From NCBI RefSeq assembly GCF_013359775.1, contig NZ_JABMCI010000065.1, positions 62,001-126,000 of the forward strand: 64,000 nt of DNA, written 5' to 3'. Below are positions 29,676 to 39,658 of this stretch, one piece after another. The notes beneath the pieces are model-generated. The model was not told where the DNA came from and made no database searches. It saw only the letters and a program-made list of their open reading frames with translations. Every line of letters begins with the position of its first letter. Position 1 is the first letter of the stretch. A program made the translations under genes and the position numbers. Source of the stretch: Cellulomonas humilata. Its GTDB lineage: Bacteria; Actinomycetota; Actinomycetes; Actinomycetales; Cellulomonadaceae.

Positions 29676-30698
29676 TCAGCCGACGAGCGCGGCCCCGTCG
29701 GCGGCGAGCGAGCCCAGGCGGGACAGCGCCCGGTAGTACTTCTTGCGGTATCCGCCGGCGAGCATGTCGGGCGAGAACAGGTCCTTCTCCCCCGCCCCGC
29801 CCAGCAGCACGGGCACGTCCCGGTCGTACAGCCGGTCCACGAGCACGACCAGCCGCAGCGCGACGTCCTGGGTCGGCACGGCGTGCACGCCCGTGAGCGC
29901 CACGAGACCGACGCCGTCCAGCAGCGCGCCGTACCGGCTCGGGTGCACGGTGGCCAGGTGTGCGAGCAGGTCGCCGAAGTCGTCCAGGGTCGCGTCGTCC
30001 CGACGGGACGCAGCGGCCCGCACCGCGTCGTCGGACAGGCCTTCGGCGTCGGTGACGACCGAGCGGTGGCGGTAGTCCTCCCCGTCGATGCGCAGCACCT
30101 CGAACCGGGCCGCGAGCGCCTGGATCTCCCGCAGGAAGTCCTCGGCGGCGAACCTGCCCTCACCCAGCGAGCCGGGCAGCGTGTTCGACGTGGCGGCGAG
30201 AGCGACCCCCCGGTCGGCGAGCTCGCGCAGCAGGCGGGACATCAGCACGGTGTCGCCCGGGTCGTCGAGCTCGAACTCGTCGATGCAGACGAGGCGGCGG
30301 GTGGCGAGCGCCTCGACGGTCGGCAGGAAGCCGAGGGCACCGACGAGGTTGGTGTACTCCACGAACGTGCCGTAGGCCGCGTCCTGGACACCCACCGCGT
30401 GGGCCAGCGACGTGAGCAGGTGGGTCTTGCCGACGCCGAAGCCGCCGTCGAGGTACACCGCGACCGGCGTGGCCTTGCCGCGCTTCCAGAACGACTTCTG
30501 CGCGCCCCGCCGGATCTCCTCGGCGGCGGCCGACAGCCTGGTCACCGCGGCGGCCTGCGACAGGTGCGCCGGATCGGGGCGGTAGGTCGCGAAGGACTCG
30601 TCGGCGAAGTGCCGGGGCGGGACGAGCTCGGCGAGGAGGCGGTCCGGCGGCACGACGGGCCGGCGCTGGGTCAGGCTGGGGACGCCCGGACTGGTCAC
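29676..30698 (-). CDS. zapE: cell division protein ZapE (AFG1-like ATPase)
   Basis: 340 residues. P-loop GGFGVGKTH (with the family context YLDGGFGVGKTHLLTSLAH), Walker B RLVCIDEFELDD, sensor motif ALAATSNTLPGSLGEGRF, and FEVLRIDGEDYRHR near the C-terminal third, all diagnostic for the AFG1/ZapE family. In E. coli ZapE acts at the Z-ring; in eukaryotes AFG1/LACE1 is mitochondrial. The role in actinobacteria is not established. GTG 30698 lies 8 bases after a TAGGCT hexamer, so its mRNA may be nearly leaderless. Confidence 0.92.
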   Translation of the reverse strand: MTSPGVPSLTQRRPVVPPDRLLAELVPPRHFADESFATYRPDPAHLSQAAAVTRLSAAAEEIRRGAQKSFWKRGKATPVAVYLDGGFGVGKTHLLTSLAHAVGVQDAAYGTFVEYTNLVGALGFLPTVEALATRRLVCIDEFELDDPGDTVLMSRLLRELADRGVALAATSNTLPGSLGEGRFAAEDFLREIQALAARFEVLRIDGEDYRHRSVVTDAEGLSDDAVRAAASRRDDATLDDFGDLLAHLATVHPSRYGALLDGVGLVALTGVHAVPTQDVALRLVVLVDRLYDRDVPVLLGGAGEKDLFSPDMLAGGYRKKYYRALSRLGSLAADGAALVG

Positions 30699-30712: not shown

Positions 30713-30844
30713 CGTCGGGCGCCCTAGAGACTCGAATCGCGACCGGATCGGTCTCCTTTTACCGGGTCATGGACGCCCGTCCCACATGTCGGCCCGAACA
30801 TCTCATGATCCGGACGCCCTCTCCCGCGTTCCCAGATCGCGTGA

Positions 30845-30850
30845 CAACCT
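30845..30850 (+). promoter_or_regulatory. leaderless-type -10 of the cysteine leader ORF
   Basis: CAACCT (A at position 2, T at 6) followed by exactly 6 bases and the GTG of the leader ORF at 30857. The first base deviates from TANNNT. No -35 is evident. The 363-base stretch 30699-31061 between zapE and the sulfite reductase gene thus holds a divergent promoter pair, the leader ORF and two RNA hairpins. Confidence 0.4.
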
Positions 30851-30856
30851 CATCAG

Positions 30857-30958
30857 GTGATCGCCCCCGGGTTCCGCCTCTCGTGTCTGTACGTGTGCGC
30901 CTGCACGCGCACCGACGCCGCGGACCTGTGCGTGTGCTGCTGTCCGCGGAGCAACTGA
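30857..30958 (+). CDS. cysteine-rich leader peptide (attenuator ORF)
   Basis: 33 codons from GTG to TGA, 104 bases before the sulfite reductase start. The peptide begins VIAPGFRLSCLYVCAC and ends DLCVCCCPRSN: seven cysteines (positions 10, 14, 16, 25, 27, 28, 29). There is no Shine-Dalgarno; a -10-like hexamer lies 6 bases upstream, so it is probably translated from a leaderless mRNA. Polycysteine leaderless short ORFs upstream of cysteine-biosynthesis genes are known in mycobacteria as cysteine-responsive attenuators, where ribosome stalling at Cys codons under starvation frees the downstream ribosome-binding site. Position, composition and downstream hairpins match that scheme. Assignment to this organism is inference. 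Confidence 0.75.
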   Translation: MIAPGFRLSCLYVCACTRTDAADLCVCCCPRSN

Positions 30959-31002
30959 CCCCGCCCCTCGTCCCCCTCGGGCGCGCGGTCTGCGTCCGGA
31001 GT

Positions 31003-31019
31003 ACCGCTTCCCCAGCGGT
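31003..31019 (+). promoter_or_regulatory. leader hairpin between Cys ORF and sulfite reductase
   Basis: ACCGCT (31003-31008) pairs with AGCGGT (31014-31019) around the loop TCCCC. It lies 44 bases after the leader ORF stop and could be one alternative structure of an attenuator. No T-tract follows, so it is not a classical terminator. Confidence 0.45.
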
Positions 31020-31040
31020 GGGTGCAGGCGCACGTCCACG

Positions 31041-31053
31041 TTCTCCCGGAGAA
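31041..31053 (+). promoter_or_regulatory. ribosome-binding site of sulfite reductase sequestered in a hairpin
   Basis: TTCTC (31041-31045) pairs with GAGAA (31049-31053) around CCG. The Shine-Dalgarno GGAG (31048-31051), 10 bases before the ATG at 31062, is in the 3' arm, so folding would hide it. This is the expected target of coupling to the upstream cysteine ORF. Confidence 0.5.
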
Positions 31054-31061
31054 ACCGCCCT

Positions 31062-32720
31062 ATGGCGCAGACCAGGATCGCACCGCCCGCTGCTCGCCCG
31101 GAGGGCCAGTGGGCGTTCGACCAGCGCGAACCCTTGAACGGGAACGAACAGTTCAAGCAGGACGACGACGGCCTCAACGTCCGCCACCGCATCGAGACGG
31201 TCTACGCGCGGGACGGCTTCGCGTCGATCGCGCCCGAGGACCTGCGCGGACGGATGCGCTGGTGGGGGCTCTACACCCAGCGCAAGCCCGGCATCGACGG
31301 CGGGAAGACTGCGACGCTGGAGCCGCACGAGCTGGACGACGAGTTCTTCATGCTCCGCGTCCGCTGCGACGGGGGCGCCCTGAGCCTCGAGCAGCTGCGC
31401 GTCATCTCCGAGGTCTCGGTCGAGTTCGGCCGCGGCACCGCGGACATCACCGACCGGCAGAACATCCAGCTGCACTGGATCCGCGTCGAGGACGTCCCGG
31501 AGATCTGGCGCCGGCTCGAGGCCACCGGCCTGAGCACGCAGGAGGCGTGCGGCGACACGCCCCGCGTCATCCTCGGCTCCCCCGTCGCGGGCGTGGCGGC
31601 CGACGAGATCATCGACGGCACCCCGGCCATCCGCGAGATCGCCGAGCGGTACATCGGCGACCCGGCGTTCTCCAACCTGCCGCGCAAGTTCAAGACCGCC
31701 ATCAGCGGCAGCCCGCACCACGACGTCGCGCACGAGATCAACGACGTCGCGTTCGTCGGCGTGGTGCACCCCGAGCTCGGTCCGGGCTTCGACGTGTGGG
31801 TGGGCGGCGCGCTGTCGACCAACCCCAAGCTCGGCGTGCGGCTCGGCGCGTTCGTCACGCTCGAGCAGATCCCCGAGGTCTGGACCGGCGTCGTGGGGAT
31901 CTTCCGCGACTACGGCTACCGCCGGCTGCGCACCCGTGCGCGGCTGAAGTTCCTCGTCGCCGACTGGGGCGCCGAGCTGTTCCGCCAGGTGCTGGAGGCC
32001 GAGTACCTGGGCTGGACCCTGACGGACGGCCCTGCGCCGCCTCCGCCGCCCACCGGCCGCCGCGACCACGTCGGGGTGCACCCGCAGAAGGACGGCAACT
32101 TCTACGTCGGCGTCGCGCCCACCGTCGGGCGCATCTCCGGGGAACTGCTCGGGCAGGTCGCCGACCTGGTCGAGGCCGCCGGCTCCGCGCGCGTCCGGCT
32201 GACCGTGGAGCAGAAGCTTGTCATCCTCGACGTCGCGCCCGACAGGGTGGACGCGCTGGTGGACGGGCTGCAGGCGGTCGGGCTGCACGTCCGGACCGCG
32301 AGCACGTTCCGGCGCGGGACCATGGCGTGCACCGGGATCGAGTTCTGCAAGCTGGCGATCGTCGAGACCAAAGCGCGCGCGACGCACCTGATCGGCGAGC
32401 TGGAGAACCGGCTGCCCACCTTCGACCAGCCGATCACCATCAACCTCAACGGCTGCCCCAACTCGTGCGCCCGCATCCAGACCGCCGACATCGGCCTCAA
32501 GGGCGCGCTGGCCAACGGCGAGGACGGCTACCAGGTGCACCTCGGCGGCGGGCTCGGCCTGACCGTCGGGCTCGGCAAGACGCTGCGCGGTCTGCGCGTC
32601 CCGGCCGAGGAGCTCCCCGACTACATCGAGCGCGTCACGCGCAAGTTCGACGAGCAGCGCCTCGAGGGCGAGCTGTTCGCGCAGTGGACCCAGCGGGCGG
32701 ACGAGGAGGACCTGCGATGA
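31062..32720 (+). CDS. sir: ferredoxin-type sulfite reductase (nitrite/sulfite reductase family)
   Basis: 552 residues; reduces sulfite to sulfide with six ferredoxin electrons. Two ferredoxin-like half domains (GRGTADITDRQNIQLH; conserved Arg/Lys anion-binding residues) precede the siroheme-[4Fe-4S] ligands C423-x5-C429 (CTGIEFC) and C465-x3-C469 (NGCPNSC). No flavoprotein domain, so electrons come from ferredoxin. Nitrite reductase is the alternative, but its neighbours cysH, cysD, cysN and a siroheme synthase make sulfite the likely substrate (SirA type). First structural gene of the sulfur operon; its expression is probably controlled by the cysteine leader. Its TGA overlaps the next ATG. 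Confidence 0.93.
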   Translation: MAQTRIAPPAARPEGQWAFDQREPLNGNEQFKQDDDGLNVRHRIETVYARDGFASIAPEDLRGRMRWWGLYTQRKPGIDGGKTATLEPHELDDEFFMLRVRCDGGALSLEQLRVISEVSVEFGRGTADITDRQNIQLHWIRVEDVPEIWRRLEATGLSTQEACGDTPRVILGSPVAGVAADEIIDGTPAIREIAERYIGDPAFSNLPRKFKTAISGSPHHDVAHEINDVAFVGVVHPELGPGFDVWVGGALSTNPKLGVRLGAFVTLEQIPEVWTGVVGIFRDYGYRRLRTRARLKFLVADWGAELFRQVLEAEYLGWTLTDGPAPPPPPTGRRDHVGVHPQKDGNFYVGVAPTVGRISGELLGQVADLVEAAGSARVRLTVEQKLVILDVAPDRVDALVDGLQAVGLHVRTASTFRRGTMACTGIEFCKLAIVETKARATHLIGELENRLPTFDQPITINLNGCPNSCARIQTADIGLKGALANGEDGYQVHLGGGLGLTVGLGKTLRGLRVPAEELPDYIERVTRKFDEQRLEGELFAQWTQRADEEDLR

Positions 32721-32875
32721 GCACCAGCGGTTCCGAGCGCGCGGTCCCCTACTACTGCCCGTTCTGCGCGAGCGAGGACCTGTGGCCGGCCGGCGAGAAG
32801 CACGGCGAGTGGGAGTGCCGCTCGTGCACCCGCGCATTCGGGCTGCGGTTCGTCGGGCTGGTGACGCGCTCGTGA
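32717..32875 (+). CDS. 52-aa zinc-ribbon protein of the sulfite reductase operon
   Basis: Small protein with two CxxC knuckles: YYCPFCASEDLWP and WECRSCTRAFGLR, four cysteines 19 residues apart, clearly a zinc ribbon. It overlaps the sulfite reductase stop (ATGA at 32717-32720) and the cysH start (GTGA, 32872-32875), so all three are co-translated. Small proteins of this kind sit between sulfite reductase and cysH in other actinobacteria as far as I recall; function unknown. An assembly, redox-sensing or sulfide-handling role is conceivable but unproven. Confidence 0.8.
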   Translation: MSTSGSERAVPYYCPFCASEDLWPAGEKHGEWECRSCTRAFGLRFVGLVTRS

Positions 32876-33561
32876 TCACCGCCGACCTCCAGCAGCTCGC
32901 CGAGCAGGCGGGCCGCGACCTCGAGGGCGCGCACCCCTCGGACATCCTGCGCTGGGCCGCGCAGACGTTCGGCACCGACCTGGTGCTGGCGTCCTCCATG
33001 GGCGACGAGGTGCTCGTGCACCTGGCCGCCGCGGCCGCGCCTGGCATCGACGTGATCTTCCTGGACACCGGCTACCACTTCGCCGAGACCCTGGGGACGC
33101 GCGACTACTACGCCGACTTCACGAACATCGCGCTCCGCACGATCCTGCCGCTGCGCACGGTCGCGGAGCAGGACGCCGAGCACGGTGAGAAGCTGCACGA
33201 CCGCGACCCCAACCTGTGCTGCGCCCTGCGCAAGGTGGAGCCGCTGGAGCGCGGTCTGGAGCCGTACACGGCGTGGATCACCGGCATGCGCCGCGAGGAC
33301 GCCCCGACCCGCACCGACATCACGGTCGTCGGCTGGGACGGCAAGCGCGGCAAGGTCAAGCTCAACCCCCTGGCCGCGTGGACGCAGGACGACGTGGACG
33401 GCTACGTCGAGGAGCACCACGTGGTGCTCAACCCCCTGCGCCAGGCCGGGTACGCCTCGATCGGTTGCGCCCCCTGCACGCGCGCCGTCGCCCCCGGTGA
33501 GGACCCGCGCGCCGGTCGCTGGTCGGGTACCTCCAAGATCGAATGCGGGTTGCACACATGA
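32872..33561 (+). CDS. cysH: adenylylsulfate (APS) reductase CysH
   Basis: 229 residues. Reduces APS to sulfite with thioredoxin. PP-loop-derived ASSMGDEVLVH, then the paired cysteines NLCCALRK and CAPCTR, the [4Fe-4S] ligand pattern that marks APS rather than PAPS reductases, and the C-terminal catalytic ECGLHT. Fits the absence of a separate cysC APS kinase here. GTG 32872 overlaps the zinc-ribbon stop. Followed by cysD with ATGA overlap. Confidence 0.95.
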   Translation: MITADLQQLAEQAGRDLEGAHPSDILRWAAQTFGTDLVLASSMGDEVLVHLAAAAAPGIDVIFLDTGYHFAETLGTRDYYADFTNIALRTILPLRTVAEQDAEHGEKLHDRDPNLCCALRKVEPLERGLEPYTAWITGMRREDAPTRTDITVVGWDGKRGKVKLNPLAAWTQDDVDGYVEEHHVVLNPLRQAGYASIGCAPCTRAVAPGEDPRAGRWSGTSKIECGLHT

Positions 33562-34460
33562 GCACGGTGACGCTGACGCAGCTGGATGCTCTGGAGTCCG
33601 AGGGCATCCACGTCATGCGCGAGGTGGCCGGCGAGTTCGAGCGCCCGGTGCTCCTGTTCAGCGGCGGCAAGGACTCGATCGTCATGCTGCACCTGGCCCG
33701 CAAGGCGTTCTGGCCGGCCCCCGTGCCGTTCGCGCTCATGCACGTGGACACCGGGCACAACTTCCCCGAGGTCATCGAGTACCGCGACCGCGTGGTGGCC
33801 GAGCACGGGCTGCGGCTCGTCGTGGCCAGCGTGCAGGACGCCATCGACGACGGTCGCGTGACCGAGCGCGCCGACGGGTCGCGCAACGCGCTCCAGACCG
33901 TGCCGCTGCTCGACGGAATCACCGCGCACAAGTTCGACGCGGTGTTCGGCGGGGGCCGTCGCGACGAGGAGAAGGCCCGGGCCAAGGAGCGGGTGTTCTC
34001 GCTGCGCGACGAGTTCGGCCAGTGGGACCCGCGCCGCCAGCGACCGGAGCTGTGGGACCTGTACAACGGCCGCCACAAGCCGGGCGAGCACGTGCGCGTC
34101 TTCCCCCTGTCCAACTGGACCGAGCTGGACGTGTGGCGCTACATCGAGCGCGAGCAGATCGAGCTGCCGGCCATCTACTACTCGCACCAGCGCGAGGTCT
34201 TCCAGCGCGACGGCATGTGGCTGGCGCCCGGCGGGTGGGGCGGCCCGCGCACCGGCGAGACGCTCCAGGTCCGCACGGTCCGGTACCGCACGGTCGGAGA
34301 CATGAGCTGCACCGGCGCGGTGGAGTCGACGGCGTCGACGATCCCCGAGGTCATCACCGAGGTGGGCGCCAGCCGCCTCACCGAGCGGGGAGCCACACGT
34401 GCCGACGACCGCGCGTCGGAAGCCGCGATGGAAGACCGCAAGCGCGAGGGCTACTTCTGA
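33558..34460 (+). CDS. cysD: sulfate adenylyltransferase subunit 2
   Basis: 300 residues, as in E. coli CysD (302). N-type ATP pyrophosphatase PP-loop LLFSGGKDSIVML, HVDTGHNFPE, GGGRRDEEKARAKERVFS, and the C-terminal SCTGAVES and EDRKREGYF, all highly conserved. With CysN forms APS from ATP and sulfate. Overlaps cysH (ATGA) and cysN (TGATG). Confidence 0.97.
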   Translation: MSTVTLTQLDALESEGIHVMREVAGEFERPVLLFSGGKDSIVMLHLARKAFWPAPVPFALMHVDTGHNFPEVIEYRDRVVAEHGLRLVVASVQDAIDDGRVTERADGSRNALQTVPLLDGITAHKFDAVFGGGRRDEEKARAKERVFSLRDEFGQWDPRRQRPELWDLYNGRHKPGEHVRVFPLSNWTELDVWRYIEREQIELPAIYYSHQREVFQRDGMWLAPGGWGGPRTGETLQVRTVRYRTVGDMSCTGAVESTASTIPEVITEVGASRLTERGATRADDRASEAAMEDRKREGYF

Positions 34461-35890
34461 TGGGCACGGCGTCAGCAACGATCGAGGAGACCGCCACGGT
34501 GACCGAGCACGCGACGCGGGACCTCCTGCGCCTGGCCACGGCCGGATCCGTCGACGACGGCAAGAGCACCCTGATCGGCCGGCTGCTGTACGACACCAAG
34601 TCGGTGCTGGCGGACCAGCTGAGTGCGGTCGAGGCGGCGACGCTGGCCCGCGGCGGCGGCGACGTCGACCTGGCCCTGCTGACCGACGGCCTGCGTGCCG
34701 AGCGCGAGCAGGGCATCACGATCGACGTGGCGTACCGGTACTTCTCCACCGCCACCCGCGCCTTCGTGCTCGCCGACACCCCGGGGCACGTGCAGTACAC
34801 GCGGAACATGGTCACCGGTGCGTCCACCGCGGAGCTGGCGATCGTGCTGGTCGACGCGCGCAAGGGCGTCCTGGAGCAGACCCGCCGGCACGCGACGATC
34901 ACGGCCCTCCTGCGGGTGCCGCACGTGGTGCTCGCCGTGAACAAGATGGACCTGGTCGACTTCGACGAGGCCACCTTCCGCGCCATCGCCGACGAGTTCA
35001 CCGCCTACGCCGCTGGGCTCGGCGTCCCGGACATCACCGCAGTCCCGCTCTCGGCCCTGGCCGGGGACAACGTGGTGGACCGCTCCACGCGGACATCCTG
35101 GTACGACGGACCGACGCTGCTCGAGCACCTCGAGTCGGTCGAGGTCGGCCGCGACGCCCTCTCCGAGCCGTTCCGGTTCCCCGTGCAGGTGGTCATCCGG
35201 CCGCGCACCGCGGAGCACCCCGACTACCGCGGGTACGCGGGCCGGGTGGCGTCCGGGGTCGTGTCCGTGGGCGACGAGGTCACCGTCCTGCCGTCGGGCA
35301 AGCGGAGCACGGTCGTCGGCATCGACACGTTCGACGGCCCGCTCACCGAGGCGCACGCGCCGCAGTCCGTCACGCTCCGGCTGGCCGACGACGTGGACGT
35401 GGCCCGCGGGGACGTCCTCGTGCCGACCGCCGAGACGGTCGCGCTGGGGTCCGACCTGGAGGGCACCGTCTGCTGGCTGGCGGAGAAGCGGAGCGTCCTG
35501 GGCGCACGCCTCCTGGTCCGCGTCGGCACCCGGACGGTCCGGGCGCTGCTGCGCGAGGTCAACGCCCGGCTCGACGTGGACAGCCTCACGGTCGAGGCCT
35601 GGGACGGCGTGGACACCCTGAACGCGGTCGACGCCACCGACACGTCCTCGGACATCCCGCCGCGGGCGCTCACCCTCAACGCCATCGGCCGGGTCAAGCT
35701 CCGGCTGGCCGAGCCGATCGTGCTGGACGAGTACGCGACGCACCGGCGGACCGGCGGGTTCCTGCTGGTCGACCCGGCGGACGGCACCACGCTGGCCGCA
35801 GGGATGATCGGCGCGACGCTGCTCGACCGCCTGACGTCGACCACGGCGGCGCAGGACGACGACGACTGGTTCGCCGGGTCCGGGATATGA
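34460..35890 (+). CDS. cysN: sulfate adenylyltransferase subunit 1 (GTPase)
   Basis: 476 residues. EF-Tu-like GTPase: P-loop GSVDDGKST, switch region [24 protein letters not shown] and two beta-barrel domains. Ends without an APS-kinase extension, so it is CysN rather than a CysNC fusion, in agreement with the APS-reductase route. GTP hydrolysis drives APS formation by CysD. ATG 34460 shares one base with the cysD stop. Confidence 0.96.
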
Positions 35891-38425: not shown

Positions 38426-39658
38426 TCAGAAGCCCGTCGACGTGACCTCCGGGTAGTACCGGCGGAACTTGCGGACCTGGTTGACCAGCGCCATCCACAC
38501 GTACAGGCGTCGGCGCGGTGACAGGTCCCCGCGGTACTGCAGCGGGCGGGCCACAGCCTTCGCCTGGATCAGCCGGCGCACCCGAGCGGCCAGCTCGGGA
38601 TCGCGCACGTAGCGCAGCAGCAGGCGGTTCGGGACGACCGAGTAGAGGATCTCCTTGTCCACCACGACCGGCGGCACGGATCGGCCCTCGACGGCGTCCT
38701 CGACCACGAACCGCATCGGGTTGGCCCCCGCGGCGGTGACGTAGTAGTTGTTGCGGCCGATCCGCGGGTTGACCTCGAAGAACCGGAACGCACCCGTGCG
38801 CGGGTCCACCTTGACGTCGAAGTTGGCGAAGCCGCGGTACCCGGTCGACGCGAGGAACGTCCGCGCCTGCTCGAGCATCGCGTCGTCGCGGGTGGTGATC
38901 ATCGCCGCCGGGTTGCCGAGCCCGGACGGGGTGTGCTCCTCGAGCAGCACGTGCGCCGAGCACAGCAGGGTGATCTCACCGTGCGTGTCCACGTACGCGG
39001 TGATGGACCGCATCTGGGTGTCGTCGCCGGGCACCAGCTCCTGCACGACGAACCGGCCGCGGAAACCGGCCCCGCGCAGCGCGCCCCAGAGCCAGGTCAG
39101 CTCCTCGGGCGTCGCGATCTCGAAGACCTTCTTCTTGCCCTCGAACTCGACGTCCTGGTAGTCCGCGCTGCTGGCCGCCTTGGCGATCAGCGGGTACTCC
39201 AGGTCGACGGGTGCGGCCCCCCACGGCTCGGAGCCGAACTCCTGCACGATCGTGCGCGGCACGGAGAGGCCGAGGTCCGTGCAGATCTCCGCGAACGTGG
39301 CTTTGTCGGAGATCCGGTCGAGCAGGTGCTCGGACAGGAACGGGACCACGTAGTACTGCTCGAGCAGCGCGCGGTGCTGGACGACCACGCGGACCAGCCA
39401 GTCCGAGTTGGCCATGAGCAGCAGCCGGCTGTCGGGGTTGGCCTTCGCGACCTCGACCAGCCGGTCCACCAGCTGGCGGGGGTCGTGACCGTCCGCGACG
39501 ATCTCGTGCCGGACGATGCGCGAGTGCGCCACCGGACCGAGCGCCGCACCGGCCACGACCACCGACGTGACGCCGTAGGCCTCGTGGAACGAGCGGGCCA
39601 GGGCGTACACGCCGATGTCGGCGCCGAGGATGACGGGCTGCAGCGGGGTCCCGCTCAC
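38426..39658 (-). CDS. ATP-grasp carboxylate-amine ligase
   Basis: 410 residues. N-terminal Rossmann-like preATP-grasp domain (VILGADIGVYALARSFHEAYG), then ATP-grasp: YPLIAKAASSADYQ (ATP-binding lysine), VVQELVPGDDTQMR and FEVNPRIGRNNYYVTAAG (metal-binding Glu/Asn). It forms an amide or ester from an acyl phosphate; substrate not evident. Family includes D-aspartate ligases that build peptidoglycan cross-bridges, attractive because cellulomonads carry D-Asp or D-Glu bridges, but that link is inference. GTG 39658 overlaps the gnd stop (GTGA). Confidence 0.82.
   Translation of the reverse strand: MSGTPLQPVILGADIGVYALARSFHEAYGVTSVVVAGAALGPVAHSRIVRHEIVADGHDPRQLVDRLVEVAKANPDSRLLLMANSDWLVRVVVQHRALLEQYYVVPFLSEHLLDRISDKATFAEICTDLGLSVPRTIVQEFGSEPWGAAPVDLEYPLIAKAASSADYQDVEFEGKKKVFEIATPEELTWLWGALRGAGFRGRFVVQELVPGDDTQMRSITAYVDTHGEITLLCSAHVLLEEHTPSGLGNPAAMITTRDDAMLEQARTFLASTGYRGFANFDVKVDPRTGAFRFFEVNPRIGRNNYYVTAAGANPMRFVVEDAVEGRSVPPVVVDKEILYSVVPNRLLLRYVRDPELAARVRRLIQAKAVARPLQYRGDLSPRRRLYVWMALVNQVRKFRRYYPEVTSTGF

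Follow-up and report, generated by a model that had tools for sequence, protein, structure and literature searches.

Short cysteine-rich open reading frames (ORFs) preceding genes of cysteine metabolism have already been described in Actinobacteria. Seliverstov et al. (2005; PMC1262725) predicted cys leader peptides in Mycobacterium, Propionibacterium acnes and Bifidobacterium longum and also covered actinobacterial leader ORF attenuators of the trp type, and in the portion of that work used here the cys leaders are presented without a regulatory RNA part. In the corresponding portion of Shell et al. (2015; PMC4633059), a Cys cluster is reported in a leaderless ORF upstream of cysA2, while Canestrari et al. 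(2020) are cited as the experimental case of polycysteine leaderless short ORFs, in Mycobacterium smegmatis. Here, we describe a leader located upstream of the sulfite reductase gene sirA in a stretch of 64,000 nucleotides (nt) of Cellulomonas humilata DNA (contig NZ_JABMCI010000065.1, positions 62,001 to 126,000; hereafter, the window, from whose first letter positions are counted, on the + strand unless otherwise indicated). As a type, this leader is most likely a cysteine attenuator like those already known, with an RNA anatomy that is not described in the literature compared. Its cysteine-rich ORF and conserved hairpins probably switch the sulfate-assimilation genes on when cysteine is short, and we consider it likely that cysteine attenuation of some kind operates at this locus.

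The leader ORF (VIAPGFRLSCLYVCACTRTDAADLCVCCCPRSN; 30857-30958) begins with GTG, ends at the TGA in 30956-30958 and is leaderless as judged by its sequence. It contains 7 Cys in 33 codons, with CVCCC near the end of the peptide; a first cluster of Cys codons occupies 30884-30904 (codons at 30884, 30896 and 30902) and a second one 30929-30943 (codons at 30929, 30935, 30938 and 30941). Only one other open frame shorter than 360 nt in the window has three consecutive Cys codons preceded by a start (at 38622, - strand, 327 nt). For comparison, 60 genomes of the same genus, including that of the window, were used, 48 of them with any match and 42 with a full-length sirA-type match; overall, 65 loci (57 distinct) have a Cellulomonas-type sirA start. 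Omitting duplicates and loci with less than 300 nt upstream, a short Cys-rich ORF ending 60-250 nt before sirA was present in 51 of the 56 distinct Cellulomonas-type loci, against 0.6% of shuffles, and in 33 of 50 loci from elsewhere in the family, against 0.3%, with none on the reverse strand of either set. The five Cellulomonas-type loci that were missed still carry Cys-rich leaders below this criterion (the fifth, L140, as judged by eye). Among Streptomyces and other named loci that encode this enzyme (L051-L122), a Cys-rich leader is present in 1 of 71, exactly as on their reverse strand (1 of 71); such a leader is missing from Streptomyces-type loci and, hence, they offer no comparison. 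Separately, L039-L042 are divergent same-genus sirA copies (68-73% protein identity) that lack the typical start motif and the CCC leader end.

The sequence in front of this ORF is also conserved. An extended -10 box, a motif known from bacterial promoters in general, can be read as TG-A-CAACCT at 30842-30850, with its last T at position -7, counted from the G of the leader GTG. Of the 50 homologs used for structure, 48 keep both A(-11) and T(-7) before the leader start, and 46 of those 48 also have TG at -15/-14, a geometry in line with a leaderless start and an extended -10 box. Because Cys-rich ORFs are far more frequent than in shuffles and the -10 spacing is kept, the leader ORF is strongly supported as a cysteine-rich frame before sirA; a leader ORF was also part of an earlier reading of this stretch (hereafter, the original prediction). 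Farther upstream, the boxes TCTC..ATCCGGAC and CTCCCG, near -35 (30800-30825), are kept in the alignment of many Cellulomonas homologs and could be bound by a regulator or form an atypical -35 region; a divergent zapE-like gene (29676-30698) lies near them.

The original prediction also placed two inverted repeats between this ORF and sirA, and both are found exactly there: hairpin 1 (31003-31019; ACCGCT at 31003-31008, loop TCCCC, AGCGGT at 31014-31019) and hairpin 2 (31041-31053; TTCTC at 31041-31045, loop CCG, GAGAA at 31049-31053). Inverted repeats of such sizes are ordinary in this GC-rich window, whose + strand contains 277 perfect 6-bp stems with loops of 3-8 nt (0.26 per 60 nt) and 145 5-bp stems with a loop of 3 nt. 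In addition, the whole leader (30857-31090) folds no better than its own shuffles (z -0.10). Therefore, only comparison among homologs can tell whether these hairpins matter. Fifty rows were used for structure, after excluding L050, L125, L135, L137, L138, L139 and L140, in which the stop pattern, the B motif or the upstream DNA is missing. A covariance-model search took 63 of 188 loci, and the 57 that matched consisted of the 50 building rows plus L050 and L135-L140.

In the covariance-model alignment (56 distinct rows), all five pairs of the main helix of hairpin 1 show changes on both sides (70 cells), and 72.2% of cells are paired, two of the pairs being unpaired in 25 of the 56 rows; in the whole modelled structure, both sides are changed in 96 cells, compared with 45 (sd 6.2) after shuffling. 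As the model alignment is fitted to structure, it is biased towards it, and its 86.6% pairing is to be read against the 30-58% of slid controls. The longest stem at the apex averages 6.3 pairs, against 4.5 when shuffled, and stems of 6 or more pairs occur in 34 of the 47 distinct apex segments, compared with 16% of shuffles. Between 31 and 33 different sequences occur in the arms among homologs, for instance ACCGCU/AGCGGU, CCGUC/GACGG, GCCCUCG/CGAGGGC, UGACGUCC/GGACGUCA and CACGAC/GUCGUG. Since the arms differ so widely and yet compensate, hairpin 1 is a real RNA structure that is preserved as structure rather than as sequence. A chimera test of the apex (z -7.6) was set aside owing to its reversed control (-5.2) and was replaced by the model alignment and the longest-stem test. 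A tree-based covariation analysis of all column pairs in a sequence-only MAFFT alignment found nothing significant (best E 0.3), a point against the attenuator proposed below; we think that this null result is due to misalignment of the apex and to arms that barely vary.

Just upstream of hairpin 1 lies B5 (30979-30997), a highly conserved strand that seems to be the main RNA player of this leader, as it is able to pair with the leader stop region, with itself, with 31020-31037 or with the start of sirA. When B5 is folded on itself, it forms hairpin B (30977-30999; 9 pairs, loop CGGUC), in which 90.4% of cells are paired and 14 cells, in 2 of the 9 pairs, are changed on both sides. None of 500 shuffles had as many such cells, while the number of pairs involved is not unusual (86 of 500 shuffles as high); the chimera test gave z -4.1, against -1.0 for the reversed control. 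In the rod (30979-31037), B5 pairs with B3 (31020-31037) and encloses hairpin 1 as a cap. This region folds with a mean z of -2.41 (below -1 in 47 of 48 distinct sequences), and 88.6% of its cells are paired, with 24 cells in 3 of 17 pairs changed on both sides; again, the cell count was not reached in 500 shuffles and the pair count was not unusual (105 of 500 as high). When the rod is slid by 2 columns, pairing is still 61-63%, and the chimera test of its base points in the wrong direction in clade 1 (z +2.4) and in the right one in clade 2 (-2.9). The case for the rod is thus based on folding and on pairing in the alignment, and not on the chimera test.

The other two partners of B5 are conserved in a different manner. 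The 5′ strand of P1 (GACC.CGCCC, 30957-30966) starts within the leader stop codon and pairs with 30987-30990 and 30979-30983; all 416 lettered cells are paired in the 50 homologs (34 of 450 were excluded for gaps), against 24-47% in slid controls. Similarly, the B5 segment GGUCUGCGUC (30987-30996) is complementary to the sirA start, GGCGCAGACC (31064-31073), with 92.1% of cells paired, against 30-41% when slid, and one pair broken in 22 of 50. The conservation of both pairings may derive partly from coding needs and from overlap with hairpin B. Around the initiation codon, the hairpin CGCC-CUAU-GGCG (31056-31067), whose loop contains the AU of AUG, does not vary among the 50 rows (192 of 192 lettered cells paired) and, consequently, shows no covariation (chimera z +1.1). 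A leader segment over Cys codons 14 and 16 (30895-30906) is, moreover, a perfect 12-nt complement of 31022-31033 in B3; this match is found in the window alone (at least 10 nt in 3 of 50 rows), and the chimera test of the first part of the leader with B3 gave z -3.5 (control +0.7). No clear native excess was detected by this test for the Cys end of the leader with B3 (z -1.6), B5, the Shine-Dalgarno (SD) sequence or the start, for the first part of the leader with the SD or the start, or for B3 or the post-stop stretch with the SD. As the reversed control of the Cys end with the start reached z -3.9, such values are no proof in that test.

These elements suggest a switch in which transcription would start at the GTG of the leaderless ORF. 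With enough cysteinyl-tRNA, the ribosome would reach the stop codon, while with too little it would stall at the Cys codons, and its location would decide how the downstream RNA folds, B5 being the contested strand among P1, hairpin B, the rod capped by hairpin 1 and sirA codons 1-4. The polarity would be like that of trp leaders: an upstream stall would leave P1 free to form and keep B5 from the gene (ON), whereas a ribosome at the stop codon would cover the P1 strand, sending B5 to the rod or to the sirA start (OFF). The leader, the promoter box, P1, hairpin B, the rod and hairpin 1 are conserved, the last three with changes that compensate each other; the stalling of the ribosome, the polarity and translation as the output are inferred. 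Translation is the likelier output, and Rho follows closely, given the 20 nt rich in C and poor in G that come after the stop and an earlier weak proposal for mycobacterial cys leaders. We advance the full reading, i.e., a cysteine-responsive leader-peptide attenuator for sirA-cysH-cysD-cysN with competition for B5, trp-like polarity and translation as output, tentatively and at somewhat less than an even chance. The broader version, in which the attenuator is family-wide and a stalled or terminating ribosome picks among four folds of a B5 hub, is more doubtful.

In folding scans of the window, P1 drops from 0.95 in RNA taken from the leader start to 0.01 in RNA taken from 3 nt before the stop, and over the same shift the pairing of B5 with the sirA start rises from 0.02 to 0.52. 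Several observations, however, weigh against the proposed switch. Averaged over 50 homologs, the exchange of partners goes in the same direction but is small (P1 0.44; B5 with the start from 0.04 to 0.14-0.19). In RNA starting 15 nt before the stop, roughly where a stall at the second Cys cluster would place the edge of the ribosome, P1 has already fallen to 0.12 in the window and 0.20 on average, even with its strand free; as the scan thus gives no support for the polarity at such a stall, our confidence in the full reading was lowered. The predicted cost of opening the region from the SD to the AUG is flat with respect to the 5′ boundary (means of 12.7-13.7 kcal/mol; 25 of 50 homologs; 9.3 to 6.8 in the window over ribosome positions), so that neither SD nor AUG accessibility responds to ribosome position in the predictions. 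Furthermore, neither P1, nearly invariant in the 50 homologs, nor the pairing of B5 with the sirA start shows covariation or a clear native excess in the chimera test.

Cysteine attenuation could act through Rho instead, the C-rich stretch after the leader stop (30959-30978) serving as a rut-like loading site once the ribosome leaves and the rod as a pause or RNA-stabilising hairpin. This stretch, which forms a local bubble in the structure profile, has a C content of 0.73 and a G content of 0.11 in the 50 homologs (mean length, 20 nt), and no U-run follows hairpin B, hairpin 1 or the rod, as read by eye (no terminator scan was run). For mycobacterial cys leaders, Rho was likewise suggested, as a weak prediction, in the portion of PMC1262725 considered here, and a binding site that is unresponsive in silico would also agree with it. 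On the other hand, P1 and its loop account in part for this short stretch, which would stay uncovered during a stall at the Cys codons and is less C-biased in other genera of the family (C 0.44-0.51). We thus regard control through Rho as possible but rather unlikely.

In those other genera (L144, L146, L165, L174, L180 and others), the Cys-rich leaders end in CCCR or CCCC right at the stop. Among the loci with a leader, 24 of 35 have GCGCC within 12 nt of the stop, followed in 18 of those by GGCGC 25-75 nt further, and in some, by eye, a sequence further down could pair with the SD area, for instance GGUCCUCGG. This arrangement is possibly a second solution of the same switch. For the attenuator proposed above, the recurring GCGCC and GGCGC strands count in favour and the absence of covariation in the post-stop pairing (chimera z -0.2) counts against; the inner hairpin lacks a clear native excess too.

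It could also be argued that the hairpins serve to stabilise or process the mRNA and that the leader ORF merely delivers ribosomes to the operon without sensing cysteine. The hairpins are indeed stable, GC-rich and conserved, and no link to SD opening is demonstrated; nevertheless, this explanation would not account for the concentration of Cys codons near the stop, before a cysteine-pathway operon, in so many loci of both sets, which makes it unlikely.

The original prediction had itself offered a different mechanism, in which hairpin 2 hides the sirA ribosome-binding site and stalled ribosomes expose it. The SD sequence of sirA is the GGAG at 31048-31051 (38 of 50 homologs have GGAGG no more than 20 nt from the start), and its last three letters do lie in the 3′ arm of the hairpin, as had been claimed, whereas its first G belongs to the loop. 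In the window, hairpin 2 exists (-2.7 kcal/mol), and 31049-31051 are predicted to be paired when the whole leader is present (unpaired 0.04-0.09), 31050-31051 becoming slightly more open without the leader ORF (0.15-0.24). There is also an excess of pairing in the alignment (69% of cells, against 33-57% when slid; a level reached by 1 of 500 shuffles), together with 7 cells in which both sides have changed, a covariation score that no shuffle reached and a chimera z of -2.4 in clade 1 (1 of 2000) that falls to -1.4 for all rows (166 of 2000). However, the core TCTCCCGGAGA occurs in 8 of 50 rows and is missing even in L003, which has 96% sirA identity, and both energy and stem length are at chance level: shuffles fold just as well as the homologous segments (mean z +0.26; 2 of 33 distinct segments below -1), and stems of at least 4 pairs are found in 20 of the 33, against 55% of shuffles. 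Moreover, some 80 nt, including the rod, separate hairpin 2 from the leader stop, GGAG is predicted to open only once the RNA through hairpin 1 is removed, and the cost of opening stays nearly constant over ribosome positions. In mycobacterial polycysteine attenuators, the Cys tract reportedly sequesters the downstream binding site by pairing with it unless a ribosome is stalled on the tract; in the Cellulomonas leader, the chimera test gave no clear sign of such sequestration (z -1.4 and -0.5 for leader parts with the SD; controls 0.9 and 0.3). Together, these observations allow for a contact around the binding site that is weak and shifting, while a conserved lid lifted by a stalled ribosome is not supported and, as a mechanism, seems very unlikely.

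Finally, a chance origin of the Cys-rich ORF from GC-rich DNA, with control of the operon by a protein acting at the conserved boxes upstream of the -10, is extremely improbable, given the 0.3-0.6% of shuffles in which such frames are expected and the 51 of 56 and 33 of 50 loci in which they are observed.

The genes downstream agree with a cysteine-responsive leader. The closest named relatives of the sirA of this genome are from Cellulomonas (C. edaphi, 92% protein identity). The gene (31062-32720) encodes a sirA/nirA-type ferredoxin-dependent sulfite reductase of 552 aa, with a phmmer score of 704.6 bits to 1zj8, whose deposition title is probable ferredoxin-dependent nitrite reductase NirA and which we take to be the M. 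tuberculosis enzyme that acts as a sulfite reductase. The NCBIfam ferredoxin-nitrite and sulfite reductase models also match this product, although under their cut-offs. In the same operon, cysH, cysD and cysN (approximate outer limits, 32872-35890) match NF002537, TIGR02039 and TIGR02034, respectively, above cut-off; with these genes downstream of sirA, the operon therefore assimilates sulfate and makes cysteine precursors. Between sirA and cysH, a small ORF with paired CxxC motifs (32717-32875) overlaps the sirA stop by ATGA and, by eye, looks zinc-ribbon or rubredoxin-like. No Rfam family, including riboswitches and T-boxes, matched within the window at gathering score.

How does this leader compare with those already described? 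Like trp-type attenuators, it would combine control codons in a leader ORF with downstream pairings that exclude one another, and it differs from them in the absence of a U-tract terminator, again by eye and with no terminator scan run. Among the literature matches listed, none concerned such a leader in Cellulomonas and none a four-way hub in cys leaders, the main mycobacterial paper being outside this comparison. The features of polycysteine attenuators that are found here are the clustering of Cys codons near the end of the ORF and a cysteine-metabolism operon downstream. As far as the portions of the sources considered here go, the cys leaders of PMC1262725 resemble that of Cellulomonas in that a short ORF before cys operons (cbs in B. 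longum) carries consecutive Cys codons close to its stop and in having no terminator, their polyY motifs being suggested as Rho sites. The leader ORF of cysA2/Rv0815 (PMC4633059) shares the C-terminal Cys cluster in an upstream small ORF and, as far as sequence indicates, the leaderless mRNA; its downstream gene is different, and ribosome profiling exists for it, whereas the Cellulomonas leader is known from sequence. The mycobacterial polycysteine leaders (Canestrari et al., 2020) are also leaderless short ORFs, as the Cellulomonas one is by sequence, and place adjacent Cys codons ahead of the genes under control, with cysteine-responsive attenuation that in Cellulomonas is proposed from the DNA. 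The conserved hairpins offer concrete arms to mutate, for which the direct question is whether translation or Rho termination is the output. Compared with the leaders of PMC1262725, the difference lies in these conserved and covarying hairpins, contained in Cellulomonas in a spacer of about 100 nt. Thus, cysteine leaders extend to a group well outside mycobacteria, where the leader recurs through the bacterial family and its Cellulomonas-type members add hairpins that are conserved and covary.
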